Shown here: piece after piece, positions 16,834 to 59,270 of the stretch
Position numbering within the stretch: the first letter of the stretch is position 1
How the letters are laid out: each line of letters begins with the position of its first letter
Notes under the pieces: model-generated
The model's database searches: none
The model's input: the letters and a program-made list of their open reading frames with translations, nothing else
What the model was told of the DNA's origin: nothing
Position numbers and translations under genes: made by a program
Assembly: GCF_900411375.1 (NCBI RefSeq)
Contig: NZ_LS422980.1
Span: 1-64,000 of the forward strand
Direction of reading: 5' to 3'
DNA: 64,000 bases
Source of the DNA: Lentilactobacillus raoultii
GTDB lineage: Bacteria; Bacillota; Bacilli; Lactobacillales; Lactobacillaceae

Positions 16834-17107
16834 AACCGCTTGGATCCGCTCACTTATTTTAGGACAGCTTCTCCAAGCAACATCGCTCCGTATAAGGGAT
16901 TGATTCAAAAAATCCAAGCCCATGATTTTCCGAATCAACGCCTTATCCTCCGGGTGTTAACCGCTTGGATCCACTCACTACTCTTAGGACAGCTTCTCCA
17001 AGCAATTTACTGCGTCTAAGGGATTCATTGGCAAAAAGCCAAGTGCGGGCTTTTCACCAATGAACGCCTTAGTCTCCGTAAATTAACCGCTTGGATTCGC
17101 TCACTTA
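16834..17107 (+). repeat. Intergenic hairpin repeat, locus 1 (two tandem units)
   Basis: Two units are bordered by CCGCTTGGATCCGCTCACT-like boxes and TAGGACAGCTTCTCCAAGCA. Unit a pairs 16891-16906 with 16932-16946 (stem core TGATTC/GAATCA). Unit b pairs 17016-17031 with 17057-17072 (TTCATTGG/CCAATGAA). The stem sequences differ between the units but each pair is complementary. It lies between the phosphatase and LtaS genes, which diverge. Confidence 0.88.
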
Positions 17108-17208
17108 TTTTTTTAACTTTCCCCCAAGTTCTTTGCTTGGCACTTTTTTCTTTTCACTTATCTGCTATCATAAATGAAGTACGTATTTTCATTTAAGGAG
17201 TCGGCATC

Positions 17209-19347
17209 TTGAAATATGTTAATTCAATCCTTGCAAAATGCAGTACCCGTAAAGGATTTCTTTTATTATTAATCATTTGCTTCTGGGTAAAAACCATGTT
17301 TGCCTACTTTGTTGATTTCCGATTAGGCATTACAAATCCGTTTCAATTCCTAATCGTATTAATCAATCCATTGGCAACAACCGTCTTACTACTAAGCATC
17401 CCACTTTACTTTAAGAAAAGTCGGATCTTTTATCCACTCGCTATTATCATCTCAATTTTAAATACAGTTCTCCTATACTTAAACGTGATCTATTTTCGCG
17501 AATTCACCGATTTTATGACGGTCAGTACGATGACCGGTTATTCTAAAGTAAACCAGGGCTTAAGCGGCAGTTCCCTGGCATTAACCAATGTCCACGATGT
17601 GATCTACTGGTTGGATTTAATTGTGATTGTCATTTTAATGGTGACTAGAAAAATCAAAATCGATCACCGCCCACTTAATCGTCGAATCGGTTTGGCGGTC
17701 ACTTCGCTTTCCGTCCTATTTTTTGCGATTAATTTATCGCTTGGAGAAATGGATCGGCCTCAATTGTTAAGCCGGACGTTTGATCGAACTTACATTGTCA
17801 AATATCTTGGACTGGATGCCTTTACCGTTTATGACGGCATTAAGTCCCAGCACACTAACGATTTGCGGGCAACTGCAACCAAATCCGAGTTGGGAGATGT
17901 TTTAAAATTCACTCATCGGCATTATGCTAAACCCAACAAAAAGTATTATGGCATTGCCAAAGGAAAAAATGTCATTATCCTTCATCTTGAAAGTTTCCAA
18001 CAATTTTTAATTGGCAAAAAGATTAATGGACAAGAAGTCACCCCATTTCTTAACAAACTTTACCGAAGCCATTCATCGTATTCCTTTAAAAACTTTTTCC
18101 ATCAGGTTGGCCAAGGAAAAACTTCAGACGCTGAAAACATGCTTGAAACCAGTACCTATGGCCTTCCTCAAGGCTCGCTGTTTGCACAACTTGGCAGTGA
18201 CAATACGTTCCAAGCCGCACCGGCCATTTTGAAGCAACGCCGCAACTATACCAGTGCGGTTTTTCACGGTAACGTTGCCAGTTTCTGGAACCGAAATAAC
18301 GTTTATAAAGAAATGGGCTATCAATACTTCTTTGATGCCAGTTACTACGATACTTCCGGCGACCGATCCATGGGCTATGGCTTAAAGGACAAACTGCTAT
18401 TTAGGGATTCTATCAAATATCTGCAGAATCTTCAGCAACCATTTTATGCAAAATACATTACCGTCACGAACCACTTCCCGTATGATCTGGATAAGGAAGA
18501 TACCAACTTCAAGACAACCAATACGGGAGATGACGTCGTCGACAACTATTTTGTTACAGCCCACTACCTGGATCAATCCATTCGTGAATTCTACCGGTAC
18601 CTGAAGAAGTCCGGTCTTTTAAAACATTCGCTGATCCTACTTTATGGTGATCATTACGGGATCTCCAACTCCGAAAATAAAAACCTGGCAAAGGCCCTTG
18701 GCAAGAATCCGGACGACTGGACAGATTATGATAATGCCCAACTTCAACGGGTACCGTTAATTATCAACATTCCTGGTATGAAGCACGGCTATATTTCCAA
18801 AAAGTATGCCGGTGAAATCGACGTTTTACCTACCTTGATGCATTTATTAGGCATCAGTACCAAACGTTACGTTCAATTTGGCACCGACATTTTCTCAAAG
18901 CAACATGATCAGGTTGTTGCCTTCCGAAATCAGGATTGGGTTAGCCCCGCATTCACTTCTATCAGCGGTGATATTTACTCAAATAAAACCGGCCAACTGC
19001 TTAAACTAACCAAGCGTCAGCAAAAACAAGTTGATAAGGATAAATCCCGAGTGGACAAAGAACTAGCCTTATCTGATTCGCTAAACGAAAAGAATTTGCT
19101 GCGCTTCTATCATCCGAAAGGCTTCGAAACGGTTGATCCCCGTAAGTACAACTACGCTAACTTATACCAAAAAGAACTTAAAATTAATAAAGAGCGTGGT
19201 AAAAAGTCGACCAGTCTTTATTCGAAGCATGGCAATACGATTAAGGATTACGTCACTGATGCGCCGGAAATTCATCACAAGTCAACAGATTCCAACCGAA
19301 TCAAGATTACCAACCCGGATGCAAGCAATAATGATAGCAGCAGGTAA
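17209..19347 (+). CDS. ltaS: LTA synthase family sulfatase (lipoteichoic acid synthase-like)
   Basis: The 712-residue protein has five N-terminal membrane helices (about residues 15-185) and an extracellular sulfatase-fold domain (about 240-590). Metal and catalytic residues of the family are visible: Glu in LHLESFQ, the nucleophilic Thr in GQGKTSDAENMLETS near residue 304, and Asp-His in LYGDHYGIS. It should polymerise glycerol phosphate from phosphatidylglycerol onto a lipid anchor. The C-terminal ~110 residues are a polar, lysine-rich tail. TTG at 17209 lies eight bases behind AAGGAG; an extended -10 (TGCTATCAT at 17163-17171) may be its promoter. Lactobacilli often have more than one paralogue, so it may be a primase-like member. 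Confidence 0.88.
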   Translation: MKYVNSILAKCSTRKGFLLLLIICFWVKTMFAYFVDFRLGITNPFQFLIVLINPLATTVLLLSIPLYFKKSRIFYPLAIIISILNTVLLYLNVIYFREFTDFMTVSTMTGYSKVNQGLSGSSLALTNVHDVIYWLDLIVIVILMVTRKIKIDHRPLNRRIGLAVTSLSVLFFAINLSLGEMDRPQLLSRTFDRTYIVKYLGLDAFTVYDGIKSQHTNDLRATATKSELGDVLKFTHRHYAKPNKKYYGIAKGKNVIILHLESFQQFLIGKKINGQEVTPFLNKLYRSHSSYSFKNFFHQVGQGKTSDAENMLETSTYGLPQGSLFAQLGSDNTFQAAPAILKQRRNYTSAVFHGNVASFWNRNNVYKEMGYQYFFDASYYDTSGDRSMGYGLKDKLLFRDSIKYLQNLQQPFYAKYITVTNHFPYDLDKEDTNFKTTNTGDDVVDNYFVTAHYLDQSIREFYRYLKKSGLLKHSLILLYGDHYGISNSENKNLAKALGKNPDDWTDYDNAQLQRVPLIINIPGMKHGYISKKYAGEIDVLPTLMHLLGISTKRYVQFGTDIFSKQHDQVVAFRNQDWVSPAFTSISGDIYSNKTGQLLKLTKRQQKQVDKDKSRVDKELALSDSLNEKNLLRFYHPKGFETVDPRKYNYANLYQKELKINKERGKKSTSLYSKHGNTIKDYVTDAPEIHHKSTDSNRIKITNPDASNNDSSR

Positions 19348-19448
19348 TGCGTAAATAAAACGATTAATGATCGAATTGTAACTCGTTCAACCATACTCTT
19401 AGTTGCCAGGTAAAAATCAACCAATCATCTTAATGGGAAGATGGTATC

Positions 19449-20237: not shown

Positions 20238-20294
20238 AAAAATGACCAATATAATTTTGACAAAGTCTGCCGAATTGTATTGAGTCTTTTAATT

Positions 20295-27715: not shown

Positions 27716-27988
27716 GTCTAACCGCTTGGCTCCGCTCACTGCTAGGACAGCTTCTCCAAACAGCACCATTCCATATAAGGGATCGAGTAGAAAAATCTAA
27801 AAACAGGATTTCCCTACTCGACGCCTTATATTCCAGGTGCTAACCGTTTGGCTCCGCTCACTACTATTAGGACAGCTTCTCCAAGCAACACCACTCCTGA
27901 TAAGAGATCAATCTGAAAAATCCAAAGTCGGGATTTCTCAGATTGATCTCTTATCATCCGGGTGCTAACCGCTTGGCTCCGCTCACTG
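27716..27988 (+). repeat. Intergenic hairpin repeat, locus 3 (two tandem units)
   Basis: Unit e pairs 27773-27790 with 27814-27831 (ATATAAGG...TCGAGTAG with CTACTCGA...CCTTATAT). Unit f pairs 27898-27916 with 27938-27956, a perfect 19-base stem built on TGATAAGAGATCAATCTGA. Borders are CCGCTTGGCTCCGCTCACT and TAGGACAGCTTCTCCAA(A/G)CA. The right border lies four bases before the -35 box at 27992. Confidence 0.9.
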
Positions 27989-45500: not shown

Positions 45501-48500
45501 AGCTAAAGCAGTTTGTTTTTGCCGATCATACTCAGCTTGGTAAGCCGCGTTAATTGACTTATTAGGGCTATACGTTTCCTTCTTGGGCTGTCCCTGTCGA
45601 TAATCATCAGCAGCCGTTTCCGCGGCAGCTGCCAGCCCATCTTTTAGTGTCTGCTCATAAAGCGTATCGTAATGCTTTTGAGCATCTGGATCATTGGTGA
45701 ATTTTGCCCGGCCGCTTTGCCGATCAACGTTATTCAGCACATCGGCAGCTGCAGATTGAGTGGCAGCTGCGAGTCCTTCAGCTTTATTTTGAGCATAAGC
45801 GCGGTCATAAGCGTCCTGAACTGCTTGGTTTTTACTGTAGTTACTACGTTTTTCTTTGCCGGATTGGTAATCACTGTCGGCATCACCAATGGCTTTGCTA
45901 ACTGCCTGTTTTTCAGCTGTTTCATAAGCTTTTTCATACGCCGTAAGAACTTTTGGATCCTGGGTGTCAATGACTTTCGGTCGGCCATTTCGAGCATCCT
46001 GTTCAGCAGTCTGCTGTGCCTTATCAACGGCTGTTGCCTGAGCTTCTGTAAATGCTTGATCGTAAGTCGCTTGAATTTCCTGGTTGGCGCTGTAATTATC
46101 ACGATGGGTTTGACAATTTTGATAATCAGCAATTCCAACCCTCTTAGCTTGATCAATAGCCGTCGCCTTAGCCGTTTCATATGCTTGATTATAGGCTGCA
46201 GCAGCATCCACATCGTTAGCATAAGTCTGAACACCGACTGCCTTGGCAATCCCCTTGGCAACATCTTCGCCAGCCTGCGTTTTGGCTGCCACAACTGCCT
46301 GATCTTTTAAGGCTTGATAAGCTTTGTCATACGCTCTTTGAACTTCTGAATTCTGACTAACGGTCGTTGCTTTTTGACCATTGCGATAATCATCTGCTGC
46401 CTGCTTACCGGCTGCTTTAACTGCATCCACTACCGCAGTTTGATAAGCCGTGGTGTAGGCCGAGACAACTTTTGGATCTTTATTTAATGACTTAATCCCG
46501 TTTTCTTTGGAAACACCACTTTTCACATCATTAGCTGCCTGAGCGACAGCTGCTTTCATTGCCGCTTCCTGCTGTTGCTTAAAGCTTTGATAATAAGCAT
46601 TTTGAACCGCCGTATTCGGACTAATTGATTTAGGCGTCGCTGTAGTTTGATAATCCGTTTCTGCTGCTTTTTCAGCTGCTCGTTTAGCATCCGTCAACGC
46701 GTTCTCATAAGCTTGATCATAAGCACTGATAACTGCTTGATCCACATAGCCTTTCAACCCGTTAGGCTTAGTAACGCCCTTGGCCATATCAGTCGCTGCT
46801 TTGGCGACCGCTGTTTTAATGGCTGCTTTTTGAGCATTTTCATACGCGGTTTTATAAGCACTTTGAATTTCAACATTTGCATGATAGTTGTTTCGAAGTT
46901 GTTGATGATTATTATAATCGGTTGTACCATCTTCAGTTGCCTTGGTTTTACCAGCAGCCAAAGCTTTATCATAAGTTTTCTCATACAGGGCCTTGGCTTC
47001 AGCATCATTTTCAAAAGCCTTACCACCGATCTCTTTAGCGACGTTAGCAGCCAGATCAGTCCCGGCCTGCGCAACAGCCGCTTCGGCAGTGGCTTTTTTG
47101 TTCTGGTTAAAGGTACTATCGTAAGCCGCTTGCACTATCCTATTTAGGCTATAAGTTTTCTGACGCTGGTTTGCTTTGTAGTCGCGGTCAGCATCCAATT
47201 TTGCTTGGGCAACTGCCTGATCTTGAGCAGCCGCATATGCTTTTCGATAGCTTTCGATAACTACCGGATCACGATACTGTGTCACAACTGCATTAGCCAT
47301 ATCACTAGGGGCTTTATCAACAGCTGATTTTATAGCGGCGGCTTGAGCACTCAGGTAAGCTTCCTCAAAAGCCTTTTGGACATCCACGTTTTGACTATAA
47401 TGTGGATCCAGTTTGTTACCCGATTCGTAGTTCTTTTGGCCAAGGGTTTTAGCAAACGCCAATTCATTAGTCTTAGCTGTTTCATAAGCTTGCTGATAAG
47501 CGTTCACCGCATCAGCATCAAATTGATACTTGGAAGCCCCCTGCTGTACGTCGATGTTATTTGTCATATCTTGACTGGCTTGTTTTTTAGCTTCGGTAAG
47601 TGTTTCCTTCTTAGTATCGTTAAAGGCCTGACGATAAACTTCCTGAATTTCCACATTGACACTGTATTGGTCGCGAAGTGATTGACCGGCCAAGTAATCT
47701 TTTTTAGCATCAACTCTGGCGGTTTTAAAAGCATCGCCTCGAGCATCTTGATAAACTTGATTGTACGCTGTCACTGCATCCTTGTCATAACTGTATTTAA
47801 GCACACCGGTAGCCCGGGGAACATTGGCATTTAAATCTTTGACAGCCTGAATTTTAGCTTCTTCAATGGTTTGAGTCTGAATTGCCTTATAAGCTTGAAG
47901 ATAAGCGTCTTCTACTTGCTGATTTCTACTAAAATATTGTCGTGTGCCCGCGCGATAATCAGTTTCAGCAGTTTTCTTAGCGGACTCAATTGCCTTGTCA
48001 AGAGCTGTTTGATAAGCTTGACGATACGCTGTGGCTGCGTCAGGGCCTTTTTCGAAAGCTTTAACCCCTTCAACCATTGTCTTACCGGCAGTCATATCAA
48101 TTGCAGCTTGGTCAGTTGCTTGTTTGAGAAAGCCGTTTTTATCATCGTTATAAGCTTTTTCATAAGCCGCTTTGACATCCGAATTTTGGCTATAATCCGA
48201 CTGCAATGCTTTTCCTGCCTGATAATCGTTTTTACCGGCCACCGTTGCTGCAGAAAGTGCCGCTGCCTTAGCTTCTTCATAGGCTGTCCGATAAGCATCA
48301 GTCACTGCTGTTACGGTATAGTTTTTAATTCCGGCTTCCAGTGACACATTTTGATTCATATCTTTGCCGGCCTGTTCCTTAGCACTGGCAATCGCTGCTT
48401 TTTGAGTTGACTCAAAAGCTTCGTTATAAGCCGAAACCGCCTTGGCATTTTGATAGGCACTAGCGTCCGCTTTTCGATTCGCATTGAAATCATCAGCCGC

Positions 48501-51500
48501 TTGCTGTTTGGCTGCTACTACCAACTTAGCTTCGGTTTGTTCATAGGCTTTTTGGTATGGAACTGAATACGATTCATCATAGCCAAGGGTCATAGCTTTA
48601 CCAGCCGTCGCATCTAGAGTTCCCTGCTGCGTACCGAATTCCAAGTTATAGGCTCTGGCAGCATCGTTGTAATAAGTTGTCACGACATCTTCTACAATTT
48701 TATCCAACTCGCTCTTAACTGCTGAACTGGTTAAAGTTGGTGACGTAATCTTCGAAATATCTGCATTAATCTGCATATCTTCAAAGAACCGCTTACTATC
48801 TTTGGCAATGCCGGCCTCATGTTTACTATTCCGGTAAATGTCCATCAACTCTTTGGTCTTCGCAACTAAATTTTCCTTCACATCTGATGAAGCCAAATAA
48901 TCATAAATTTGGTTATAATCTTTGTTGCTGACGGTATTGGTTGACTTATCATGATTACCTTCGTTCACAAATTGATAATCGGTTGCCGGTTGACCGTCAA
49001 GAAAATCTTTAATGGCCTTATCAACGGCACCTGCTTCATTTTCATAAAGAGAGTAAATGAATTTAAGTGCACCTTCATTTGAAGGTTGATAATTTTCATA
49101 AACCCCACTTCGTTGATGGCCCTGTAAATTGTTCAAATCTTCCAAAGTAATTGCTCTGGCAACATAAAGTGCCTCGGCGATTGTCTTGCCATCCTGTTTT
49201 AATGGGTCACCAGTTAATTTATCTCTGGCTGCCATTTGCATAACCGGTACAATCACCTTTTTTGCCCATGCATAAGCCTCAGCCGAAACAAATTCTGTTA
49301 CAGCAACTTTTTGATCGGAATTGGCCGCTTTGACGGGATCATTAACTTGATAATTATTAAGGCCTAAACCAGTGTATCTGATACCAGTGGCCCCAGTTGA
49401 TGGATCCATCACTTCGTTTAAAGCAGTTTGAACCCCCACGTTGGCATGCCGCAAAATTGCATTCTTAATTCCGTTTGCCAGTGCAAGATAAAGACTGTTA
49501 GCAGTTGAGGAATTGGCCGCTTTTCTAAGGCCAACAATATCTGCAATCGTTTTCAAAGTGCCGTTCAATGCCAAAGCACCATCATCGCCACCAAGTGTTG
49601 CCGGAATCGAGACGGATTGGTTACCATTGCTATCAACGTATTCCATCCCAATTGATCGAATATCTGTCAACGCCTGTTTGATAATGCCGTTTTGAATAAA
49701 TGGCAAGACGATATTCACAAATTTTTGCAGACTTTCAACCGTCTTTCTAGTTTGTGAACTGACATCTCGATTAAGCCCACTGGTTTCCTGGTAAGCAAAG
49801 ACTTCTGGATTATCCTTAACAGTTGTATTAAGAATTAACGTCCCAAGCAAGTTTACAATTCCGGTCACACTAACATTGGATTCCAAATCCTTACTTCGAT
49901 AAGCATTACTGTTTACCAGCTTATCACCAAAACGCGGATCCATTGCGTTAGCTTTCACTTTATTGATATACTGTTGCACCTCAGTTGCATACGTGGATAA
50001 ATAATCAGCATATCCCAGTTTAAAATTGTCGTTTTTATCATTGGCGGAAACTTCCTTGGCACCAATTCCAAGTACGCCGCCTTCTTTCCAAGTCCCCGAC
50101 CAGATCAATTGACCACTATTGTCCATCATTGTATGGGAGGTTGTCACCTGCTTAGGATCAATGATACCGTTTTCATCTTCAGCATGACTCGCAACATAAG
50201 CATCCAAGACATGACCAATTTTCCCGAGATCGCCAACTTGTAATACAAGCGCTCCGGCACTACTAATCGGTTTATTAATTTCGTCAATACTCTTTTGGGC
50301 CTGTTGCCAACCAGATCGATAATCAGGATTGTTAATATCCGTTGTCGATGCCAGCTTAGTAGTCGACGTATACTGAATTGTCGGTTTTTTCCCGGTAATT
50401 TTAAAAATTTCTGCAGCCTGCTTTAACGCAGCCGTTTGGTCGGCTTTGGTTGCGTTAGTTAGTTTGATGACATTAGTCGTTTCATCATAATTCTGCCGGA
50501 GCCCTTCAAGGGGATCCGTGGCTTGATCTTTTTGAGCCTTTTGAGCCGCCGCTGACTTTGAATCGGCATCAGCCTGTTCATCGGCTAATTGAAGTGATCG
50601 TTTTACTCGAGTAGTTGGCGCTGCTTTTTCTGCAGAACTTTCTTCTTGATGATGCTTCTCAGCTACTTTTGGCTGAGACTGATCTTGGTTGACCGAAGTC
50701 GCTTCAGGTTGACCACTTGTCGATTGATTAGTCGAAGCAGCTGATGAGTTCTTGGCCGGCGCTGCTGAATTAGTCGTTGCTGAAGAAGCAGCCGCAGTTG
50801 ACCTTTGTGACTGTTGAGGCGTCGTACCAGCTGAAGAAGCAGTCTGTGCTTGAGCAGCTGCCGGTTGTCCAGCAGTCGACTGCGTAGCTTGTCCCTGACC
50901 AGCCTGTTGACCAGTTGAAGCTGATTGCTGATTGTTCGTTGAATTACCTGTTGCCTGACCCGCCGAGGCTTGAGGAGTTGTTTGTTGATGACTTGCCTGA
51001 GTAGCTGCAGCTTGATTAGTCCCTGCCGACGACTGAGTTGGTTGTGATGCCTGAGTCGCCTGACTGGTTTTTGCTGGCTGTGATACTTGCGATGTTCTGG
51101 CTGCCTGTGACGTTTGTGATGCTTGTGACGCCTGGGCAGTTGACGTTGGTTGTGACGCTTGCGACGTTGGCTGAGTAGCCGACGAAGCCGCTGTAGCAGC
51201 ACCAGTTGAGCTGGTTTGGCTTTGAGTGTCCGCACCTTGAGCTTGCTGTTGTGTTCCCGTCTCTTTTTGGTAAGCTCCCGCCGGCTTTGCAGGAACCGTT
51301 TGGCTACTACTTTGTTTGCCAGGTGATGCCGCCGTTTCCTCAATCGGCGTTGTATCAGGTGAGGCCGTGCTGCTATCAGCTGCCGCCCGATCATTGCTTC
51401 CACCAAATAAAATCACGGTTCCAACACCAAGCGTATATAGACTGGTCGTTAACCAATGTTTTTTGTGCTTTCGTAATCTATAATGCAGATTTTGTTTTTC

Positions 51501-51548
51501 TGCTCGTCCAATTCGATTGTTTCTTGAAATGTTCTTTCGGCCTCTCAT
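39582..51548 (-). CDS. Giant repeat-rich cell-surface protein (putative adhesin)
   Basis: One open frame of 3988 residues. The order is: a KxYKxGKxW-like signal (RLRKHKKHWLTTSLYTLGVG, residues about 24-57), a Ser/Thr/Gln/Ala-rich stretch (58-310), a globular part (340-985), about 26 copies of an ~89-residue alpha-helical repeat (990-3290; half-units read like DYQAGR...YSQN..VQ.AY..AY and GA..YANDxxA..AY..AY), a block of beta-rich VTVTTxDGx segments (3300-3760), and three ~72-residue C-terminal modules of DUF5776 type (YYTKPVKTIKVINQKGINSY). There is no LPxTG motif, so wall attachment is probably through the C-terminal modules. It is likely exported and forms a long rod. GAAAGGGTG lies eight bases before the ATG. 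Confidence 0.9.
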   Translation of the reverse strand: MRGRKNISRNNRIGRAEKQNLHYRLRKHKKHWLTTSLYTLGVGTVILFGGSNDRAAADSSTASPDTTPIEETAASPGKQSSSQTVPAKPAGAYQKETGTQQQAQGADTQSQTSSTGAATAASSATQPTSQASQPTSTAQASQASQTSQAARTSQVSQPAKTSQATQASQPTQSSAGTNQAAATQASHQQTTPQASAGQATGNSTNNQQSASTGQQAGQGQATQSTAGQPAAAQAQTASSAGTTPQQSQRSTAAASSATTNSAAPAKNSSAASTNQSTSGQPEATSVNQDQSQPKVAEKHHQEESSAEKAAPTTRVKRSLQLADEQADADSKSAAAQKAQKDQATDPLEGLRQNYDETTNVIKLTNATKADQTAALKQAAEIFKITGKKPTIQYTSTTKLASTTDINNPDYRSGWQQAQKSIDEINKPISSAGALVLQVGDLGKIGHVLDAYVASHAEDENGIIDPKQVTTSHTMMDNSGQLIWSGTWKEGGVLGIGAKEVSANDKNDNFKLGYADYLSTYATEVQQYINKVKANAMDPRFGDKLVNSNAYRSKDLESNVSVTGIVNLLGTLILNTTVKDNPEVFAYQETSGLNRDVSSQTRKTVESLQKFVNIVLPFIQNGIIKQALTDIRSIGMEYVDSNGNQSVSIPATLGGDDGALALNGTLKTIADIVGLRKAANSSTANSLYLALANGIKNAILRHANVGVQTALNEVMDPSTGATGIRYTGLGLNNYQVNDPVKAANSDQKVAVTEFVSAEAYAWAKKVIVPVMQMAARDKLTGDPLKQDGKTIAEALYVARAITLEDLNNLQGHQRSGVYENYQPSNEGALKFIYSLYENEAGAVDKAIKDFLDGQPATDYQFVNEGNHDKSTNTVSNKDYNQIYDYLASSDVKENLVAKTKELMDIYRNSKHEAGIAKDSKRFFEDMQINADISKITSPTLTSSAVKSELDKIVEDVVTTYYNDAARAYNLEFGTQQGTLDATAGKAMTLGYDESYSVPYQKAYEQTEAKLVVAAKQQAADDFNANRKADASAYQNAKAVSAYNEAFESTQKAAIASAKEQAGKDMNQNVSLEAGIKNYTVTAVTDAYRTAYEEAKAAALSAATVAGKNDYQAGKALQSDYSQNSDVKAAYEKAYNDDKNGFLKQATDQAAIDMTAGKTMVEGVKAFEKGPDAATAYRQAYQTALDKAIESAKKTAETDYRAGTRQYFSRNQQVEDAYLQAYKAIQTQTIEEAKIQAVKDLNANVPRATGVLKYSYDKDAVTAYNQVYQDARGDAFKTARVDAKKDYLAGQSLRDQYSVNVEIQEVYRQAFNDTKKETLTEAKKQASQDMTNNIDVQQGASKYQFDADAVNAYQQAYETAKTNELAFAKTLGQKNYESGNKLDPHYSQNVDVQKAFEEAYLSAQAAAIKSAVDKAPSDMANAVVTQYRDPVVIESYRKAYAAAQDQAVAQAKLDADRDYKANQRQKTYSLNRIVQAAYDSTFNQNKKATAEAAVAQAGTDLAANVAKEIGGKAFENDAEAKALYEKTYDKALAAGKTKATEDGTTDYNNHQQLRNNYHANVEIQSAYKTAYENAQKAAIKTAVAKAATDMAKGVTKPNGLKGYVDQAVISAYDQAYENALTDAKRAAEKAAETDYQTTATPKSISPNTAVQNAYYQSFKQQQEAAMKAAVAQAANDVKSGVSKENGIKSLNKDPKVVSAYTTAYQTAVVDAVKAAGKQAADDYRNGQKATTVSQNSEVQRAYDKAYQALKDQAVVAAKTQAGEDVAKGIAKAVGVQTYANDVDAAAAYNQAYETAKATAIDQAKRVGIADYQNCQTHRDNYSANQEIQATYDQAFTEAQATAVDKAQQTAEQDARNGRPKVIDTQDPKVLTAYEKAYETAEKQAVSKAIGDADSDYQSGKEKRSNYSKNQAVQDAYDRAYAQNKAEGLAAATQSAAADVLNNVDRQSGRAKFTNDPDAQKHYDTLYEQTLKDGLAAAAETAADDYRQGQPKKETYSPNKSINAAYQAEYDRQKQTALAGTFAQAAGDIAAGITVEQGAAKYQNDQQAVDKYRQDYLETLNKAVTAAEAAAKEDYRLTGQKKNDAKHAAIVKAYDQAFDQAKATAGEQAKKQAPQDVETGVTLTDGQQAFANDLDVQQIYANAYNETVDKGKAAAEKQAVTDYQSGQPQTTYSQNAAIQQVYEMVMAEQRSAGRTQAIEQAGKDVEAGASQAEGAAKFNHDQAAKDAYAQTYQQTLTKAQTAARQQAVEDYQKQVAKNNAYSQNTEIQAAYDQEFEKMHQATVTHLPEVIAEDIKAGTTETAGADRYRHDPIAQQQYLDAYHQAVEAGKQAAAADANNDYRNGQKQSPYSRQQAINEAYEAAYQQNQQTGRQTAVTTASGDVDQGISKAEGAAKFANDADAKAAYEKKYDEALQAGKDQASQTGQADYDAGHPKQVTYSQNDAINQAYQTAYEEAKQKTLATTQAQAAADVAAGIAMEAGDDQYQHDTDAAEKYRQDYEAALTAAKDQATETAKNDYQAGREPQSQFSQNKEVQKAYETAFNNQQAIGIKQSTEKAVKDVEGGMDKTVEAGKIADKTTREAYEKAYDQALEAAQVTATTTGKADYDKTQTANPDYSQHPAVQKAYETAFEQAKQAALNRTDAQAVTDIEAGITKETGRQAFGNDQQATAKYDQAYDEALAKRKVEATATAEADYAAGKGQNQQFAKQEALQKAYDQAYQDAKAKGAVKAEQTAVTDVDQGVDVTEGIKAFANDPDAQRVYEDQYAATVKAGQEKAGKDAVTDYQTGQKKTPYSRNSAINQAYETAFKDQKAAGHDQAITTAAEDVAQGRPKNADAFKHDADAQKAYQEAYDQKQADAEQKATDQAKADYQAGKSLADYDNVNAGVKAAYQKEYQEAKSANLIKATQQGEKDAKAGVDQTTSAKAFEMDVDAKANYDQAYQTAVETGTKIAEAQADADYKNQQPKNAHYSPNQTIQKAYEQSYETARNTAIAQAALDGKRDADTSSRKPDNHQSFNNDEAVRQAYNQAYNDAVKEKKAQAEQQAKDDYQAGRTSQKNYSQNTEVQKAYDETYKQAKEGRITEAELQAGTDVDQGISASAGAEAYANDLDAKDKYLESYKQALDTKKKEAADKGKNDYNNNLPMNPTHSKNSEIQADYEQAYQQAKETFAKEAERQAGIDVTNGVDRQTGAEQYSRDPEAQNRYKATYDRDLNTAKDQAKDQVEADYMAGQHKTDFKHPDVQQSYDDKYQELKDNARKLAESTGREAGRKGEDLATGKTKFSHDADAQKAFEDSYRQGYQEVAKQTTVKFGDGHATMTTGPDGKTEMTVSNGQPTSIPADGQSMKIGDQGVAIKDRNGDVTVNDGQGTTTIVNAQNEIVKVVTTEINPQTGVITVTTKDGKDQVTETKVTTKPTNAGTTVIRDTGATEQPVTVIVNTKDSQGNPMTQVLTPNKVETLPTGETALLDRDGNVTITDENGQSVTTNEEGTVIGTHQQTEAATTTTRQLPDGNLVTIQADKDGHTTVTMTTPDGQVTPITGSTATPIKDQSQQSTGKMAVTDGKGNVIIRDADGNATTINASGQITQVTTVGKDGTVTVENLGNVGETTSSVVTNPDGTVTVTTPDGTETKTATRDQTGQIVTQSEKGSENQEVKVVDGQVVVTHFDNTGKTTGTTTTVTEPTTGKTIVTNRDAAGHVIAEMIVKADGTVTVNKPASTVGSGAATTGPVINPNDVNSAGSIVTETGQSTATTITTPATTIEQPDSVGQTQNRYYQKLVTKTVVTVKGLYRYSRSTFNKRYRVGYVRPGSVLHVIKVIIRPDGITRLQLSDGTYITGLKSFNQFRSIARHYHVDATAVIRVTAKKGVYTHSSPRFTRDNQVKRLKKGTVLKVRRIVRQGKTTRFELTNGQYVTARKSAVQLIQRYYTKPVKTIKVINQKGINSYSKKTFTKAKRVSHYSKGRVLKVTQLVKSGLTTRFQLEDGSFITANKKLVVKTD
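41640..48580 (-). repeat. Coding tandem repeats of the giant surface protein (~26 units of ~267 bp)
   Basis: Each unit has two half-repeats of roughly 40-47 residues. The A half carries DY..G...(Y/F)S.N..(V/I)Q.AY..(A/S)Y and the B half D(V/M)..G....G...(Y/F).(N/H)D..A..AY..AY followed by an Ala/Lys/Glu-rich helix. Units are diverged from one another (few identical runs), so this is an old array that is not prone to slippage. The alternation continues without frameshift for about 2300 residues. Confidence 0.85.
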
Positions 51549-51964: not shown

Positions 51965-53392
51965 TTAAAAAGTAATTTTTCCAACGGCCAGCCCATAAAT
52001 GGTGTAAACTGCCGCAATCACAATCAGGACAGCAATGGCCATTTCAATTGGCCCAAACACCTTATCAGCTTTGTTATCGCGTTTTTGTAAAATCCAATAT
52101 ACTGGAATGCCGGCTGCAAATAGCAACGACATCAGAAGCAGGAAGTTTGCCCCAGCCGCAAATAGTAACCAGCAGGCATAGATGCTTGAGATAATCCCGA
52201 TCGTAATATTTCTTCCCCGACCACTACTATGATCATCGTTTACAGAATACTTCAGTTGGTAGAAAGCTGAGAAAGCATATGGAATCAAAATTGCCGCACT
52301 GGCGATTGAATAGAAGAAGTTATATGCGGATGCCGTAATTAAATAGCTAAACATAAACAACTCAACACAAACGTTGGTAACCGTCAAAGAAGTAATCGGT
52401 GCGCCATTTTTATTTTCTTTAGCAAACAATTTCGGGAAAGTGCCTTCTTTGGCAGCTTCATATGGCAACTGGCCGGCAAACATCGTCCAAGACAGCCAGG
52501 CCCCAACTACTGAGATGATCAGGCCAAGGTTGACGACCATCGATCCCCATTTACCAACCAAACTTTCAAGCAAATTGGCCATTGCCGGCTGTGTTAGATG
52601 AGCCAAACCTGAGCGGCTCATAACACCAAAAGATAGTAACGTGACCAACATATAAATTAAAATAACTGTGATAATTCCTAAAACGGTTGCTTTACCGACA
52701 TCGGAACGCTTACGAGCCCGGCCTGAGAAGACGACCGCTCCTTCAATTCCAATGAAGACCCAAACCGTTACCAGCATCGTACTCTTAGCTTGTTTCATCA
52801 CATCGGCAAATTGAAAATTGCCACTTGGTGTAAACCAAAAATCACTGGTAAACATGTTCATTTTAAAGGCGAACAATACAATAATCAGGAATAGGAAAAT
52901 CGGAATCAATTTGGCAATCGTAATAATCGTATTAACAAACGATGCCGATTCAATACCTCTTAAAATCATAAAATGGCAAGCCCACAATATCACGGATGCG
53001 GCAAGAATTGACCAAATATTTTGACCATCCCCAAAAATTGGCAGAAAGTAGGCCACCGCACTCATTAATAATGTTGCGTACCCAACGTTTCCCAGCCATG
53101 CGGATAACCAGTAACCCCAGGCTGAATTGAAGCCCATATATTTGCCGAAACCGGCTTCAGCATAGCTGTAAACACCAGCATCCAAATCTGGTCGTTTCAT
53201 TGTCAGGTTTTGAAATGTCAACGCGAGCATTACCATTCCAATTGCGGTAATTACCCAGCCGATGATAATCGCACCGGCACCAGCACCGGCAGCCATATCA
53301 TGCATTAAATTAAAGACACCGCCACCAATAATCGATCCAACAACCAAACCGATCAACTCAAGCAGGCCTAATTTACCATCATGTTTTTCCAT
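51965..53392 (-). CDS. arcD: Arginine-ornithine antiporter (APC family)
   Basis: The 475-residue protein has about 12-13 membrane helices and the basic amino-acid antiporter signature near the N-terminus (LGLLELIGLVVGSIIGGGVF). It belongs to the APA/ArcD-type antiporters that exchange arginine for ornithine, supplying the deiminase pathway without net energy cost. ATG at 53392 (MEKHDGKLG) lies behind AAGGGAG; the 27 in-frame codons upstream look non-coding and run into repeat locus 5. It is the last gene of the cluster, with a terminator after it. Ornithine or other basic amino acids could be co-substrates. Confidence 0.9.
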   Translation of the reverse strand: MEKHDGKLGLLELIGLVVGSIIGGGVFNLMHDMAAGAGAGAIIIGWVITAIGMVMLALTFQNLTMKRPDLDAGVYSYAEAGFGKYMGFNSAWGYWLSAWLGNVGYATLLMSAVAYFLPIFGDGQNIWSILAASVILWACHFMILRGIESASFVNTIITIAKLIPIFLFLIIVLFAFKMNMFTSDFWFTPSGNFQFADVMKQAKSTMLVTVWVFIGIEGAVVFSGRARKRSDVGKATVLGIITVILIYMLVTLLSFGVMSRSGLAHLTQPAMANLLESLVGKWGSMVVNLGLIISVVGAWLSWTMFAGQLPYEAAKEGTFPKLFAKENKNGAPITSLTVTNVCVELFMFSYLITASAYNFFYSIASAAILIPYAFSAFYQLKYSVNDDHSSGRGRNITIGIISSIYACWLLFAAGANFLLLMSLLFAAGIPVYWILQKRDNKADKVFGPIEMAIAVLIVIAAVYTIYGLAVGKITF

Positions 53393-53508
53393 TGCATTCA
53401 CTCCCTTACAAAATTTTCCCCTGGTATCAAAAGATAATTGCAAAACCGGTGCAGATTTCAAACAATGTGTCATTACTCACAAGCTTGCTTACACTTCGGC
53501 TTATCCCG

Positions 53509-53590
53509 AGTTAGCTACGCACACTGATTTAGGACTGCTTCGCTAAGCAACACCACTCCTGATAAGGGTTACCGATTAGCTGCGCACACT
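53509..53590 (-). repeat. Intergenic hairpin repeat, locus 5 (collapsed unit)
   Basis: Boxes TTAGCTACGCACACTGATTT and AGGACTGCTTCGCTAAGCA are present, but the stem region is reduced to CTCCTGATAAGGGTTACCGATTAGCTGCG. The hairpin has been lost, leaving only the borders. The second border forms the last codons of arcR. Arc-cluster copies use TTAGC/GCTAA where other loci use TTGGC/GCCAA. Confidence 0.75.
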
Positions 53591-54268
53591 CAAAATTTTA
53601 AAATACTTCCGGTTATACTGAATCTTGCCTTCCGCTACCAGCTGCTGCACCATCAGACTGGTTGTTTCCCTCGTTGTGCCACTGACCTTTGACAGTTCGA
53701 TCAACGTCATTGGGTACGGAATCACGATAGTATCGTCATCTTGCTTATCACCAATTTGTTGGCCAAGAAACCAAATGGCATTCCAAACCCGACATTTGGC
53801 ACTGGTTGTCACCATTCGCTGAAGTTGCATTTCGGTTGTATTGATAATCGAACTCATTTCACGAATTGCATTGATCATCATCTCCGGATTTTCCCGCAAC
53901 AATTCCTCATATAACTTCATCGGCATGACCGCGATTTTGACTTCCGTCATCGTTTCAATACTATAAGCATAATTTTCGTCTTCAAAGAGCCCAATATATG
54001 GAAACGCTTTATTTTGACGAATATAAAGATAAAGCTGCTCATCCCCGTCTTCATCCAAATGAAACGATTTCACGACGCCACTAATCAGAAAATAATAGTT
54101 GCTTCTCGGATCTCCCTGATCGAAGAGAACCTGCCCCCTATGAAAAGACTTAATCGTCATGGATGAAATAATGCGATCCAAATCCTGATCACTTAATGGG
54201 CTAAATTCTGGATGACTTCGAATTTTTTCTCGATACGATTGGTAATCACTTTTATTGTTCAATATCAT
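53576..54268 (-). CDS. arcR: Crp/Fnr family regulator of the arginine deiminase cluster (ArcR)
   Basis: The 230-residue protein has a cyclic-nucleotide-binding-like domain (about residues 20-140, GQVLFDQGDPRSNYYFLISG) and a C-terminal winged helix (about 165-225, LIELSKVSGTTRETTSLMVQ). There is no Cys cluster, so it does not look like an oxygen-sensing FNR. Similar genes sit in lactobacillar and enterococcal arc operons and activate them. GGAGTGG lies before the ATG. Its last codons, S-V-R-S and stop, are read from the edge of repeat locus 5, so the original C-terminus has been changed. Confidence 0.85.
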   Translation of the reverse strand: MILNNKSDYQSYREKIRSHPEFSPLSDQDLDRIISSMTIKSFHRGQVLFDQGDPRSNYYFLISGVVKSFHLDEDGDEQLYLYIRQNKAFPYIGLFEDENYAYSIETMTEVKIAVMPMKLYEELLRENPEMMINAIREMSSIINTTEMQLQRMVTTSAKCRVWNAIWFLGQQIGDKQDDDTIVIPYPMTLIELSKVSGTTRETTSLMVQQLVAEGKIQYNRKYFKILSVRS

Positions 54269-54362
54269 TATATGTCCACTCCAAAAATGGTTAGATAATT
54301 AACTTGTCAATAAAAGTGTACCGCAATTAATGGTTTTGTACATCAAACAGTTTCAGGTGCGC

Positions 54363-54493
54363 CGAGCTAGCTATGCACACTAATTTAGGACTGCTTCGCC
54401 AGCTCACAAGGGTTCAATTTGCAAAAGCCAAACCCCGGCTTTCCCAAATCGACGCCTTATCCTCCGGGTGTTAACCGCTTAGCTACGCACACT
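54363..54493 (-). repeat. Intergenic hairpin repeat, locus 6 (one unit)
   Basis: A unit with the arc-type boxes (TAGCTATGCACACTAATTTAGGACTGCTTCGCCAGC) and the stem AAGG...ATTTG with CAAAT...CCTT, plus the apical AAAGCC/GGCTTT. The second border overlaps the end of arcC and gives S-V-R-S and stop. Confidence 0.82.
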
Positions 54494-55435
54494 AACTTTT
54501 TTACTAATCACCGTTCCCGAACCGTTTTTAACAAACCCTTCAATATTATCAAGCGCTGTTACCACCGCCTGGTTTCCGGTTGCCTTCACGAAATCAATCG
54601 CTGCCTGCACCTTTGGTAACATACTTCCCGGAGCAAATTGGTTTTCTTCAATATAAGTTTCCAATTCAGCTACCGAAACCCGCTCTAATTTCTTCTGATT
54701 TGGTTGGTTAAAGTTAACATAAATGTTTGGCACCGCCGTTAAAATAATTAATGCATCGGCATCCACTAATTCAGCCAATTTTTCACTGGCAAAATCTTTA
54801 TCGATCACCGCTTCTCGGCCAATTAACTGGTCCCCATTTGTGACTACCGGAATGCCGCCACCACCAACTGAAATTGGAATAATTCCAGCATCAACCAACG
54901 TTTTAACTGCTTGGGTTTCAACAACCCCCGTCGGTTTAGGTGATGGTACAACCCGGCGATAGCCACGACCCGAATCTTCAATAAACGTAAAGTCAGGATT
55001 TTCTTTTTTAGCTAAATCAGCTTCGCCTTTGGACATAAATGGGCCAATTGGTTTAGTGGGGTTTTTAAATGCCGGATCATCCGCACTAACCTCAACTTGA
55101 GTAACCACCGTCGCAACCGTTTGCTTCAATCCCTTTTCCTTTAAAACCTGATTCATGGCATTTTGCATCCAGTAACCAATGCTTCCCTGAGTCATCGCAA
55201 CGGCTGTGTCCAATGGCATTGCCGGGTTTTCCTCAGTGCTGCCGGCTGCCTGCTGCAACAATAAGTTACCAACTTGTGGGCCGTTACCGTGCGAAATAAT
55301 CAATTGATCTCCGTTTTCAACAAATTTCACCAGTTGTTTAGCTGTTGCCAACAGTGCTTGCTGTTGTGCAGCTGCCGATGCGTCTTTTGAAAGAATTGCA
55401 TTGCCGCCAAGTGCGACTACTATTTTTCGTCCCAT
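54479..55435 (-). CDS. arcC: Carbamate kinase
   Basis: The 318-residue protein has the carbamate kinase signatures: VALGGNAIL at the N-terminus, [36 protein letters not shown] and [14 protein letters not shown]. It transfers phosphate from carbamoyl phosphate to ADP, the ATP-yielding step of the deiminase pathway. AGGAGGGATT precedes the ATG. The protein normally ends near GTVIS; the final residues KKVSVRS come from repeat locus 6. It lies between arcB and arcR in one transcript direction. Confidence 0.95.
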
Positions 55436-55482
55436 TGTGAATCCCTCCTGTTTATGAGATAACCGTTATTTTAAATACGAAA

Positions 55483-55517
55483 GGCCGGGGACAGACTAAT
55501 AATGTTTGTCGCCGACC
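55483..55517 (-). other. Hairpin between arcB and arcC
   Basis: GGCCGGGGACA pairs with TGTCGCCGACC (9 of 11 pairs). It lacks a good T run, so it may be a partial terminator or an mRNA processing or stability element that tunes arcC relative to arcB. Confidence 0.35.
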
Positions 55518-55561
55518 CTCACTTTCTTGGTTGATTAATCTGTTTAATTTTGTTTCAGTGC

Positions 55562-56593
55562 CTAAACTTTTGGAATGAACAAATTACCCAAAGTTGCCGC
55601 CATCATTGCTTTAATTGAATGCATTCTGTTTTCTGCTTCTTCAAATTGACGAGCGTACTTGCTGTTAAAGACTTCGTCGGTAACTTCCATTTCTTTAATC
55701 CCGTACTTTTCTTCAACTTCTTTACCATAAGTTGTGTCAGTATTATGGAAGGCTGGCAGGCAGTGCATGAAGATTAGCTGATCATCCGGCGTGCCCGTCT
55801 TTTTCATTGCTTCCATGTTAACTTGGTATGGGGTTAATTCCTTAACCCGTTCTTCCCAATTGCTTTCGCCCATGGAAACCCAAACGTCAGTATAAACAAC
55901 GTTGGAGCCTTTCAGGCCTTCATCAAGTTCATCGGTAATAACCAACTTGGCACCTGATTTTTCAGCAAATCCTTTAGCAATACTTTGAGTCTCATCAGTT
56001 GGGAACAAAGCTTTAGGGGCCACAATGTGCACATTTACACCCAGAATTGCGCCAGTTACCAGCAACGAGTTGGCAACGTTGTTCCGGCCATCACCCATGA
56101 AAGTCAATGTTAACCCTTGGAGTTTACCGAAGTTTTCTTTAACCGTCATAAAGTCAGCCAGCATTTGAGTTGGGTGCCATTCATCCGTTAATCCGTTCCA
56201 TACCGGTACCCCACTGTCACGTGCCAGGATCTCGGCATCACTTTGTTTAAACCCACGAAACTCAATGCCGTCAAACATGCTGCCAAGAACCTTCGCCGTA
56301 TCCGACGTCGTTTCCTTTTTACCCAACTGAATGTCGTTTTGGCCAAGGTACTCAGGATGAGCGCCGAGGTCAATTGCGGCAGTCGTAAAGGCTGAACGAG
56401 TTCGTGTCGAAGATTTTTCAAACAACAGGGCAATGTTTTTGCCTTCCAAGTAATGGTGAGGAATACCAGCTTTCTTTAAAGCTTTTAAATGTAAGCCAAA
56501 ATCAATTAAATATTCCAACTCAGCAGCCGAAAAATCTTTTTCAGCCAGCACACTGCGACCTTGAAATACGTTTTGTCTAAAATCTTTTGTCAT
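55562..56593 (-). CDS. arcB: Ornithine carbamoyltransferase (catabolic)
   Basis: The 343-residue protein carries the carbamoyl phosphate site [12 protein letters not shown] near residue 60 and the ornithine-binding HCLPAFH near residue 277, with the DVWVSMGE motif between them. It runs here in the catabolic direction, making carbamoyl phosphate and ornithine from citrulline. AAGGAG lies nine bases before the ATG. It follows arcA and precedes arcC. Confidence 0.95.
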
Positions 56594-56647
56594 ATTCGAA
56601 TTCTCCTTGATGTGAAGTTTGGGGTACTAAATTTTGTCGTCAATCTA

Positions 56648-56706
56648 CCGGGTGTTAACCGCGACGCCTTATTCTCCGGGTGTTAACCGCTTAGCTGCGC
56701 ACACTA
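56648..56706 (-). repeat. Intergenic hairpin repeat, locus 7 (two partial right halves)
   Basis: The sequence ACCGGGTGTTAACCGC is followed by GACGCCTTATTCTCCGGGTG, TTAACCGCTTAGC and TGCGCACACT. These are two right-hand ends without the stem arms. The outer edge forms the last base of the arcA stop codon. Confidence 0.75.
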
Positions 56707-57945
56707 TCTTTTTAGATCCTCCCGGACGATTGGGCAGCTCATGCAACGTGGACCCCCACGGCCTCTTGACAATTCACTTGAGATAACCTCAAGTACCTTT
56801 AAGCCGTGTTTTCTAAGCAGTTCATTGGAAACATAGTTCCGATTGTACGTAACAACAACGCCTGGCGCAATCGCTAACGTATTGGAACCATCATTCCACT
56901 GCTCACGACCAGCAATAATCGGATCACCGTTACCGGTTGGAATTAAATCAAGATCATCCAAATGAAGCGCTGTTTTAAGAACTTTCTTCAAATCAGTATC
57001 GTGTTGAAGATTTAACTCACCTTCATTTTTTCCAGGAGTAATGGTCCAAGTATCGATTTGACCACCTTTACCAAGAATTCCCGGGTGAACTGTAAACTGA
57101 TCGTAGTTGATCATTGTAAAGACCGTATCCAAATGCATCATTGCGTGGTTATGCGGAATCTTAATGGCAATGACCGTGTCATATTGGCCATGTTTGAAGA
57201 GGTTTTTAGCAATATCCTGAATGGCATCCGCCGAAGTTCGTTGAGAAACCCCAATGGCCATCACATGATCATTCAATACCAGTTCATCGCCACCTTCAAT
57301 TCGGGTTTCGTGGTTTCGATCACGCCATACGTGAACTCCCTGGTTAGCAAATCGTGGATGATATTTAGTGATTGTTTCATTAAATAGTGATTCACGTTGC
57401 CTTGCCGGATACGTCATATGGTTAATGCTCAAGCCATCACCAATACATGCCGAAGGGTCACGCGTAAAGTACAGGTTTGGCATCGGATCCATGTAAAATT
57501 CGTAGTCTTCGTTTTCAGCACTACTTACAAGGTCCTTTGGCACGAAGTCAAGTTCGTTCTTACGAACACCTTCCATGATCTTAACAACCATGTCTTGATT
57601 ATTCATGCTGCCAAGATATTCCTTCAACGCATCGTGAATGGTGCCGGAAGCATATCCTGATTCAGTTAACATCTGCTCTAAGAAATGGTCTCTGACTTCT
57701 TCGCCACCGGCATCCAGTGCTTCAGCAGACAGTTTTTCCAAATATAGAACTTCAACACCGTTATCTCGCAGTGTGTCAGCGAAATAATCATGTTCTTTTT
57801 GAGCAATCGGTAAATATGGAATGTCATCGAATAATAATCGTGGCATCATTTCAGGGGTAAAGTTTTCAATTTCCCTGCCAGGTCGTTTCAACAATACCGT
57901 TTTTAGCTTACCGATTTCTGAGTAGTTATGAATTGGACTTGTCAT
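56704..57945 (-). CDS. arcA: Arginine deiminase
   Basis: The 413-residue protein has the active-site motifs of arginine deiminase: [34 protein letters not shown] and, near the end, [11 protein letters not shown] with the nucleophilic Cys near residue 401. It converts arginine to citrulline and ammonia and opens the pathway that raises pH and makes ATP. ATG at 57945 lies eight bases behind GGAGG; the frame is open five codons further upstream through that site. It is the first gene of the cluster, behind a long regulated leader. Confidence 0.96.
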
Positions 57946-58190
57946 TTGTGTAACCTCCATTCTTCCCTTGAGTACATGTCTAATGATAGATCATTTTAAA
58001 AAAGCCATCGTCTGTTTTTATGCATTGAAAATGTCGTTTTTTTAGCAGAATTAGCATGCCACAATTAAAGATTGAATAAATCTAATTTTTTCTTTGATTA
58101 ATTGCTTCACAAATTGATTTTAACGGATTTTTATACAACCAAAAATGTTTAAATTAAAAAATAAATTTTTGATTAAATTTTATAATCCTT

Positions 58191-58349: not shown

Positions 58350-58401
58350 AGGCTTTTGCGCCTAAGTGATATTGGATTTCCATGCAATTTCACCCCTCTT
58401 G

Positions 58402-58445
58402 GTCTAAAAGAAAACAGAGAGAAAGCAATTAATTTCCCTCTGTTG
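58402..58445 (-). terminator. Terminator after argR
   Basis: On the minus strand ACAGAGGGAAA pairs with TTTCTCTCTGT (one mismatch) and is followed by TTTTCTTTT. It separates argR from the arc transcript. Confidence 0.75.
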
Positions 58446-58457
58446 ACCGCCAACCTT

Positions 58458-58937
58458 TCAATTCACTGTCGTAATGAGTAGATCCGGATTAGCATGTTTT
58501 AAAAATAAGTCTTTGATGTTTTTGGCTGATTTAACTGATGGGCAAAACGTCACAATTGTGTCATAGCCAGCCAGGGTCCCGGCAACGTCTTCCAAATGCA
58601 AATCATCGATGACTGCCGCTAGTGGGTTTGCATAACTGGGTTGTGTATGGATCACGTCAACAAACTCAATTTGGCGAACTTCCGTCACGGTTCCATTGAT
58701 CATGCGATACATTCGCTCCAGTTCGTTTTGATTGCCCGACTTAAAAATCATGTAGCGGGACTTTCCAGAACTGTCAGGCTGCTTAACAATCTGCATTTCA
58801 CGAATATCGCGGGATAGTGTTGCCTGAGTGACGTTAATCCCGGATAGCTTCAACTTTTCCATGAGTTCTTCTTGGGTGGTAATCGTATACTGATTGATAA
58901 TTTGTTCAATTTTAGTTTGCCGCACATCTTTTTTCAT
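58458..58937 (-). CDS. argR: Arginine repressor ArgR
   Basis: The 159-residue protein has an N-terminal winged helix-turn-helix (about residues 1-70, NVTQATLSRDIREM) and a C-terminal oligomerisation domain. The arginine-contact motif is normally GTIAGDDT; here it reads GTLAGYDT, so the first of the two Asp is Tyr. Some lactic acid bacteria carry two ArgR paralogues that cooperate and only one binds arginine, which would fit. GGAAGG precedes the ATG. It lies directly upstream of the arc genes with its own terminator and is probably a regulator of them. Confidence 0.9.
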   Translation of the reverse strand: MKKDVRQTKIEQIINQYTITTQEELMEKLKLSGINVTQATLSRDIREMQIVKQPDSSGKSRYMIFKSGNQNELERMYRMINGTVTEVRQIEFVDVIHTQPSYANPLAAVIDDLHLEDVAGTLAGYDTIVTFCPSVKSAKNIKDLFLKHANPDLLITTVN

Positions 58938-59031
58938 GATCTTTTTACCTTCCTACCTATCGAAAAATAAGCTGCTTAAATATCCGCGAACTTTCAAGTT
59001 AATTGTATAACTATATCATAACAAATCATAA

Positions 59032-59270
59032 TCTAAAGTGTGCGAATTCAAGCGGTTAATTTACGAAGGCTAAGGCGGCTAATTGTGAAAAGCCCGAACT
59101 TGGCTTTTGGCAATTAGATCCCTTAGACGCAGTAAATTGCTTGAAGGAGCAGTTCTAAAGTGTGCGAATTCAAGCGGTTAATTTGCGAAGGCTAAGGCGG
59201 CTAATCGTGAAAAGCTCGGGCTTGGCTTTTTGCGATTAGATCCCTTATCCAGAGTAAGCCTTTAGCAGTC
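59032..59270 (-). repeat. Intergenic hairpin repeat, locus 8 (two tandem units, minus orientation)
   Basis: Two units of about 121 bases in direct repeat (59032-59152 and 59154-59270) run in the opposite orientation to loci 1-7. The first pairs 59070-59085 with 59111-59126 (CTAAGG...CTAATTG with CAATTAG...CCTTAG). The second pairs 59192-59207 with 59233-59247 (CTAATCG with CGATTAG). The apical AAAGCC/GGCTTT is present in both. It lies between argR and the GH65 gene. Confidence 0.88.

Follow-up and report, generated by a model that had tools for sequence, protein, structure and literature searches.

Hairpin repeats constrained on one strand and placed at gene ends in Lentilactobacillus raoultii: a probable family of small mobile elements

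Short repeats that fold into hairpins have been described in several groups of bacteria. Integron attC sites are folded on one strand only, and their structure is kept as their sequence varies. BOX, RUP and SPRITE repeats are similar in size to the ~120-nt units described here, and ERIC/IRU repeats, at ~127 bp, are of similar length and have a TA duplication. In this study, we analysed hairpin units in a 64,000-nt stretch of Lentilactobacillus raoultii (assembly GCF_900411375.1, contig NZ_LS422980.1, positions 1 to 64,000), called the window below. Ten full-length units occupy six places in the window, and the whole genome (3.07 Mb, 29 contigs) holds 101. Of the described families, REPINs show compensatory changes and form hairpins in single-stranded DNA (ssDNA) or mRNA, according to the excerpts of PMC3116915 consulted. 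In the part of PMC12306157 that cites Liang 2015, REPs at most 15 nt from a stop codon stall ribosomes. Excerpts of PMC3049150 present BOX as folded, probably parasitic repeats and SPRITE as enriched near the 3' ends of convergent genes.

The lactobacillar units resemble REP/BIME/REPIN repeats, as the same excerpts portray them, in being high-copy intergenic hairpins with compensatory changes and clusters (PMC3116915), and in that part of them sit close behind stop codons (PMC12306157). However, each unit is one long hairpin of 120 nt with unlike ends, without the two inverted short REPs of the REPIN type, whereas REPs are short doublets. In addition, the L. raoultii genome gave no match to a Y1 (RAYT-type) transposase, the host belongs to a different phylum from the gammaproteobacterial carriers, and the lactobacillar units often end exactly at or inside a stop codon. 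Two tested features set the family apart from REPINs, and Rfam gave no match to it. With BOX, RUP and SPRITE of Streptococcus pneumoniae it shares a low-GC Gram-positive host, a strong fold, a presumed non-autonomous and mobile nature and modularity, a likeness of description and not of sequence; the excerpts of PMC3049150 describe neither stop-codon-exact placement nor a strand test for BOX. ERIC/IRU repeats are intergenic hairpins as well, and the same excerpts give them an orientation-dependent effect on transcripts; these are enterobacterial, and they too are likened by description, not by sequence. Unlike attC sites, the lactobacillar units are separated by short spacers only, with no gene cassettes between them.

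From the comparison of sequences, the units probably form a family of small non-autonomous mobile hairpins of the REP/ERIC/BOX kind, selected for their fold on one strand and placed at gene ends. There are many unit types, which differ in sequence in nearly every helix and keep the fold. Where a gene faces the 5' end of the folded strand, that end tends to coincide with the stop codon of the gene.

Covariation and the strand that folds

The 101 units (E<=1e-13) were taken from stretches around 111 kept matches. In an alignment fitted to the covariance model (A2), a procedure that favours the structure, standard pairs fill 94.2% of the cells, against 74.5% in shuffles that leave relatedness uncorrected and at most 43.4% when the partners are slid by 1-3 columns. 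Both sides have changed in 34 of the 39 pairs, which bears out genome-wide the covarying helices that the initial annotation of the window had reported. The covariation score is 0.516 in these units (0.162 shuffled, at most 0.091 slid) and 0.681 in 62 units of several species read in RNA sense (0.206 shuffled, at most 0.158 slid). For 47 units aligned with MAFFT and not fitted to the model, RNAalifold gave 27 pairs, and double changes that preserve pairing occur in 19. With respect to terminal inverted repeats as in miniature inverted-repeat transposable elements (MITEs) the picture is mixed: the arms pair near both termini (AGC/GCT, CCAAGC/GCTTGG) but leave the outermost bases unpaired. Rfam 15 gave no match at gathering score in the window, and below-cut-off matches on units were to microRNA-type and small-RNA hairpins. 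In the locus L124:8300-12200, the sole match reaching the cut-off was a thiamine pyrophosphate riboswitch (12022-12129) beside an array, ~45 nt from its end.

In a plain-DNA palindrome, G·T and A·C mismatches are expected in equal numbers, since each turns into the other on the opposite strand. On the strand on which the units were first matched (the reported strand), A·C outnumbered G·T 129:34 in L. raoultii, 150:37 in L. hilgardii and L. farraginis together and 169:39 in another species set. These counts come from fitted alignments whose structure was drawn on the reported strand, a bias opposing the result. A hand count in the unfitted 47-unit alignment gave 25:7, and pair positions with more A·C than G·T stood to the reverse as 20:6, 20:6 and 29:4 in the three sets. 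An A·C excess on the reported strand is G·U wobble on its complement, and the complement was therefore taken as the folded, RNA-sense strand. It has the better minimum free energy in 101/101, 86/86 and 87/97 units of the three sets (one row of the second and two of the third left out for length or N) and in 45 of 48 units from other genera. The G·U tally in other genera, 164:4, depends on a model (R2) itself built on that strand. Mutation bias fails to explain the excess, because unpaired columns show no surplus of G>A: C>T stood at 47/1310 and G>A at 3/404 in L. raoultii, and at 73/1293 and 18/346 in L. hilgardii and L. farraginis, the third set having no usable G column.

The reading strand also bears on the internal loops. 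In 91, 75 and 61 of the 101 units, respectively, columns 54-96, 64-86 and 65-85 form A·C on the reported strand and hence U·G on the complement, which closes internal loops seen on the reported strand. The two-base mismatch (GA opposite CG) noted earlier between two helices is real on the reported strand (GG in 98/101, AC in 91/101); on the complement it becomes C·C next to G·U. Covariation thus comes together with a wobble tolerance confined to one strand, as in a structured RNA. Selection on structure, one of two causes offered by the initial annotation, is supported by these counts, which indicate that the constraint acts on the complement of the strand it had been proposed for. RNA and ssDNA alike would fit the folded strand, and sequence alone cannot tell them apart. 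The A·C:G·T ratio ranges from 2.6 to 6.0 across all four gene contexts, without significant dependence on context (p=0.12), so that the bias reaches beyond units in transcribed 3' regions. A strand-specific wobble test of this type can tell, from sequence alone, a folded RNA or single strand from a plain DNA palindrome, and can tell which strand matters.

The same counts bear on a simpler account, in which the units are a plain DNA MITE of some transposase and the covariation reflects a few founder palindromes without structural cause. Dispersed copies, arrays, spacers shared within arrays and modular subfamilies would all suit it. With founder palindromes, A·C and G·T should be equally frequent, whereas the strand bias is about four-fold in three species sets, and covariation continues across species; we regard this account as improbable.

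The other cause offered earlier, arm-to-arm copying by template switching in a DNA hairpin, would change both arms at once. The 14 closest unit pairs (1-4 differences) show 19 single-side changes and one double change, which leaves the copying unsupported, and a strand-symmetric process should again yield A·C and G·T in equal numbers. In favour of copying, double changes are frequent, and the 36 pairs with 5-8 differences already hold 24 of them against 80 single ones; they outnumber single changes only from 13 differences on. The scarcity of G·U intermediates on the reported strand, which would also speak for copying, is explained by reading the wrong strand. Furthermore, inner modules pass between units as blocks, giving modular subfamilies. 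Arm copying is therefore very improbable. Single changes with later compensation, plus exchange of inner modules, appear to fit the alignments better.

Placement of units at stop codons

Genes were called by a simple longest-open-reading-frame rule, and loci beyond the L. raoultii genome were chosen for holding units. With three species sets pooled, the gene facing the RNA-sense 5' end has its stop codon between -4 and +8 nt relative to that end in 78 of 109 arrays, against 17.5 expected from uniform placement across free intergenic space. For genes facing the other end the figure is 3/81, a value lowered by leaving the border fragment at that end unsubtracted. A tally of 78 distinct gene ends near a unit has 28 at d=-1, where the first AG of the unit finishes a TAG stop; TGA at d=-4 and a distance of d=0 account for 8 each. 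Homologues lacking a recognisable unit could be compared for 26 of these 78 ends, and in 22 cases at least one is of equal protein length. All d=-1 cases in this comparison (8/8) have such a homologue, although three of the eight are one orthologous gene. At L134:15144 and L235:512, only 1/9 and 1/6 of the empty homologues agree in length. "Empty" was scored by motif, and some homologues may carry decayed units. At one codon, L. farraginis reads TAG-TGTGCG and L. hilgardii TAA, and the ornithine carbamoyltransferase and arginine deiminase genes of genome G010 (L198) are further clear examples. In other genera, 39 arrays had a usable gene, five of these arrays being copies of one transferred operon; 21 of the 39 fall in the -4 to +8 range, and 13 of the 21 have d=-1 (10 TAG, 3 TAA). 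This placement predicts how the hairpins enter genomes and affect the genes they end.

The gene contexts of 60 L. raoultii arrays were co-directional in 20 and 18 cases, divergent in 11 and convergent in 11. Another account takes the units for intrinsic transcription terminators multiplied in the genome, and five T occur within 12 nt after the unit on the reported strand in 13/101 cases. However, no unit (0/101) has a U-run after the hairpin on the RNA-sense strand, and the gene on the exact-end side starts, not ends, at 31/60 arrays; of the accounts weighed here, this is the least credible. In one near-complete genome, a hand count with the origin assumed at the contig start gave 16 + and 4 - in the first half and 15 + and 19 - in the second, a weak replication-strand bias that was not relied on.

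Mobility, host function and spread

If the units are mobile, the folded single strand, RNA or ssDNA, would be recognised by a mobilising machinery. Active lineages would then keep the fold while the sequence drifts through single and then compensating changes, and inner modules would be exchanged between units via recombination. The presence of the wobble asymmetry in all gene contexts is expected if selection precedes insertion. Insertion at or just behind a stop codon would be tolerated because the element brings its own stop, and a unit lying downstream of a gene, in sense, may become a strong hairpin in the 3' untranslated region (3' UTR).

It is also possible, though doubtful, that the element homes to translation stops, the folded RNA or ssDNA entering at the first base of the stop codon and bringing an in-frame TAG that leaves the host protein unchanged. 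Such homing would be a safe harbour, and would account for the persistence of ~100 copies in each genome throughout a bacterial family. The insertion machinery would have to sense where a reading frame ends, perhaps via mRNA or the terminating ribosome.

The main rival is a 3'-UTR RNA element selected by the host, like the Escherichia coli REP hairpins near stops. It would act on termination, ribosome stalling or mRNA decay, its copies spreading by recombination and transfer without a mobility system of their own. The placement at stop codons is exact and polar, units or relics stand behind three arginine deiminase cluster genes, and the same site is occupied by units across species, all of which would fit. 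The stalling described in the consulted part of PMC12306157 for E. coli REPs at most 15 nt from the stop offers a precedent. On the other hand, 34 of 61 L. raoultii arrays have at their RNA-sense 5' end a gene directed away from them, with the strand asymmetry present there too, the units at a given site differ between species, and many of the genes have empty homologues. A host-kept element is rated rather unlikely. The mobile, fold-selected hairpin is rated most likely, and both may hold for different copies.

Within an array, units lie head to tail in a single orientation with spacers of mostly 4-5 nt, which agree with one another at 2.42 of 4 positions (1.53 shuffled). The fragments at array ends are 12-73 nt of the RNA-sense 5' part of a further unit. 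An over-run or rolling-circle origin predicts that the fragment copies the last unit; among 23 arrays of several units that carry a fragment, it matched the last unit best in 8 and a different unit in 13, with 2 ties, and this origin was rejected. Model scores showed by eye no age gradient along arrays.

Turnover is evident between sites and between species. Pairs of units with six or fewer differences number 26, and in 22 of them the two units belong to separate arrays, often on separate contigs. The site upstream of the 5'-nucleotidase gene (unit 27743 in Table 1) also holds units in L. hilgardii, L. farraginis, L. dabitei and L. kisonensis, varying in sequence and number between species; L. 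rapi has a remnant by eye and L. parafarraginis is empty. The array at 23987 has no unit at the corresponding site of L. hilgardii or L. farraginis, both of them near to L. raoultii, with 97% identical ornithine carbamoyltransferase. An autonomous transposon in the genome could share its ends with the units; among the matches listed for L. raoultii, a single 5' border stands alone (C19:110811, which by eye is a degraded unit), as do several 3' borders. Isolated RNA-sense 5' ends, likewise among the matches listed, lie at C9:93786, C12:16901, C1:102016, C5:437773, C5:748673 and C19:33240, that at C5:437773 being the end of a truncated unit. In L. hilgardii, runs of N begin inside arrays (L128 ~14480-14850; L234 ~3785 onwards), and draft assemblies may therefore undercount units.

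The Y1 transposase (PF01797) was the sole enzyme family searched as a partner. It matched in 6 of 23 genomes, one of them from another genus. Within the genus, genomes with 39 units or more had matches in 5 of 10 cases (G004, G010, G015, G016, G019) and those with fewer in 0 of 11, the unit counts behind the comparison running up to at least 60. The one-sided chance is 252/20349, ~0.012, calculated by hand and uncorrected for kinship and genome size. The G010 matches are short pieces located where contigs begin. A Y1 transposase as a necessary partner was rejected on the lack of a match in the L. raoultii genome; a Y1-type partner may have belonged to the family's past.

Several observations weigh against mobility. 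No movement of units was observed, and no mobilising enzyme was found with PF01797. This transposase had no match in L. raoultii, nor in four further genomes of the genus that are rich in units, and is therefore not required in cis. Left spacers and right flanks agree at 1.78 of 4 positions against 1.41 shuffled, weak support for target duplication. A border fragment of unexplained origin stands at one end of 44 of 60 arrays. Double changes are already present at 5-8 differences. The gene at the RNA-sense 5' end points toward the array 27 times and away 34 times in L. raoultii, whereas the ratios are 34:9 and 49:26 in the sets picked for holding units, and a host function in 3' UTRs could explain part of this pattern.

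A first model (R1) found units in 19 of 24 Lentilactobacillus genomes and in 22 of 60 relatives overall. With the RNA-sense model R2, a search of related genomes that had been suggested from the window alone was positive at E<=1e-4 for 90 of 201 genomes of the Lactobacillaceae, in 22 of 40 genera. The best 18 matches per genome were scored, and some genomes with one or two may hold only the copper operon described below. All of 40 loci from 22 genomes of ten other genera contained a unit again, and those read by eye share the end motifs and the fold. In an order-wide sample, 12 of 118 genomes matched, 10 of them outside the Lactobacillaceae. These out-of-family matches are mostly of 33-52 bits and may be chance hairpins, except in one genome with 16 matches up to 64.5 bits, some in array-like spacing, and one with the copper operon. 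Plasmid records gave one weak match (Secundilactobacillus paracollinoides) with one query and none with a second.

A near-identical unit lies in a copper-resistance operon that is shared by seven genomes from several genera of Lactobacillaceae and by one from outside the family. The operon copies are 93-99% identical, and the unit stands between the repressor and P-type ATPase genes (by eye from translation). An autonomous carrier element was considered and set aside, since the shared operon explains the near-identical units across genomes. No name for the hairpin family was found in the open-access literature, checked mostly by title, among the matches listed. Common in food and fermentation bacteria, the family seems, on this and on the lack of an Rfam match, to be unnamed.

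Units in the window

The window was searched with the covariance model at a cut-off of up to E=1 (Table 1). As reported by the model, eight units lie on the + strand and two (59037-59157 and 59159-59273) on the - strand. The ten complete hairpins of the initial annotation were recovered as ten full-length units of ~120 bp each, two of which (54386 and 59159) are damaged. Its eight loci reduce to six places with full units, a partial copy at 53530-53590 and the 56648-56706 locus, where the model gave no match even at E=1 and a relic of 3' ends is visible by eye. The shared borders stand: at up to 3 mismatches the 3' border has 14 matches in the window against 0.02 expected, and the 5' border 7 against 0.00. 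The middle stems had been quoted correctly, but "always complementary" was too strong, the stems of units 23987 and 54386 being imperfect by eye. As stated earlier, the window holds no transposase, none being found among the 20 window proteins scanned.

Table 1. Hairpin units, fragments and relics. Window positions; the strand is the folded, RNA-sense strand, opposite to the reported strand on which units were first matched. The last row lies outside the window.
Position	Strand	Feature	Evidence
16834-16854	-	border fragment at array end, from the 5' part (RNA sense) of another unit	sequence
16860-16979	-	complete hairpin unit	covariance model, 114.3 bits, on reported +; folds
16985-17105	-	complete hairpin unit, 5-nt spacer from unit 16860-16979	132.2 bits
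23987-24105	-	complete hairpin unit, imperfect middle stem	116.9 bits
24111-24229	-	complete hairpin unit	118.8 bits
27715-27740	-	border fragment, 26 nt; by eye source of the TAA stop for the gene remnant at left	sequence
27743-27862	-	complete hairpin unit	123 bits
27868-27987	-	complete hairpin unit; GA/CG positions paired on reported strand too	115.3 bits
33252-33299	-	border fragment, 48 nt	array-end fragment analysis
33304-33422	-	complete hairpin unit	126.9 bits
53530-53590	-	partial unit; Crp-like gene 53576-54268 (-) enters and stops inside	31 bits
54386-54493	-	hairpin unit with deletion, 108 nt	70.8 bits
56648-56705	-	relic of unit ends	sequence, by eye
59037-59157	+	complete hairpin unit, opposite orientation	118.5 bits
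59159-59273	+	degraded hairpin unit	67.4 bits
L300, 938-1056 of its reverse complement; also L262, L294, L298, L299, L301, L302, L304		copper-operon unit	

In the arginine deiminase cluster (51965-57960), a unit or relic lies in sense behind the deiminase, kinase and Crp-like genes. The arginine deiminase gene (56704-57960, -) has its TAG stop completed by the first AG of the relic. The amino-acid-kinase-family gene at 54479-55435 (-), probably that of carbamate kinase, stops within the RNA-sense 5' end of unit 54386. The junctions of this cluster have different units or none in other species. The minus strand of the window also carries an open reading frame of 3988 amino acids at 39582-51548.

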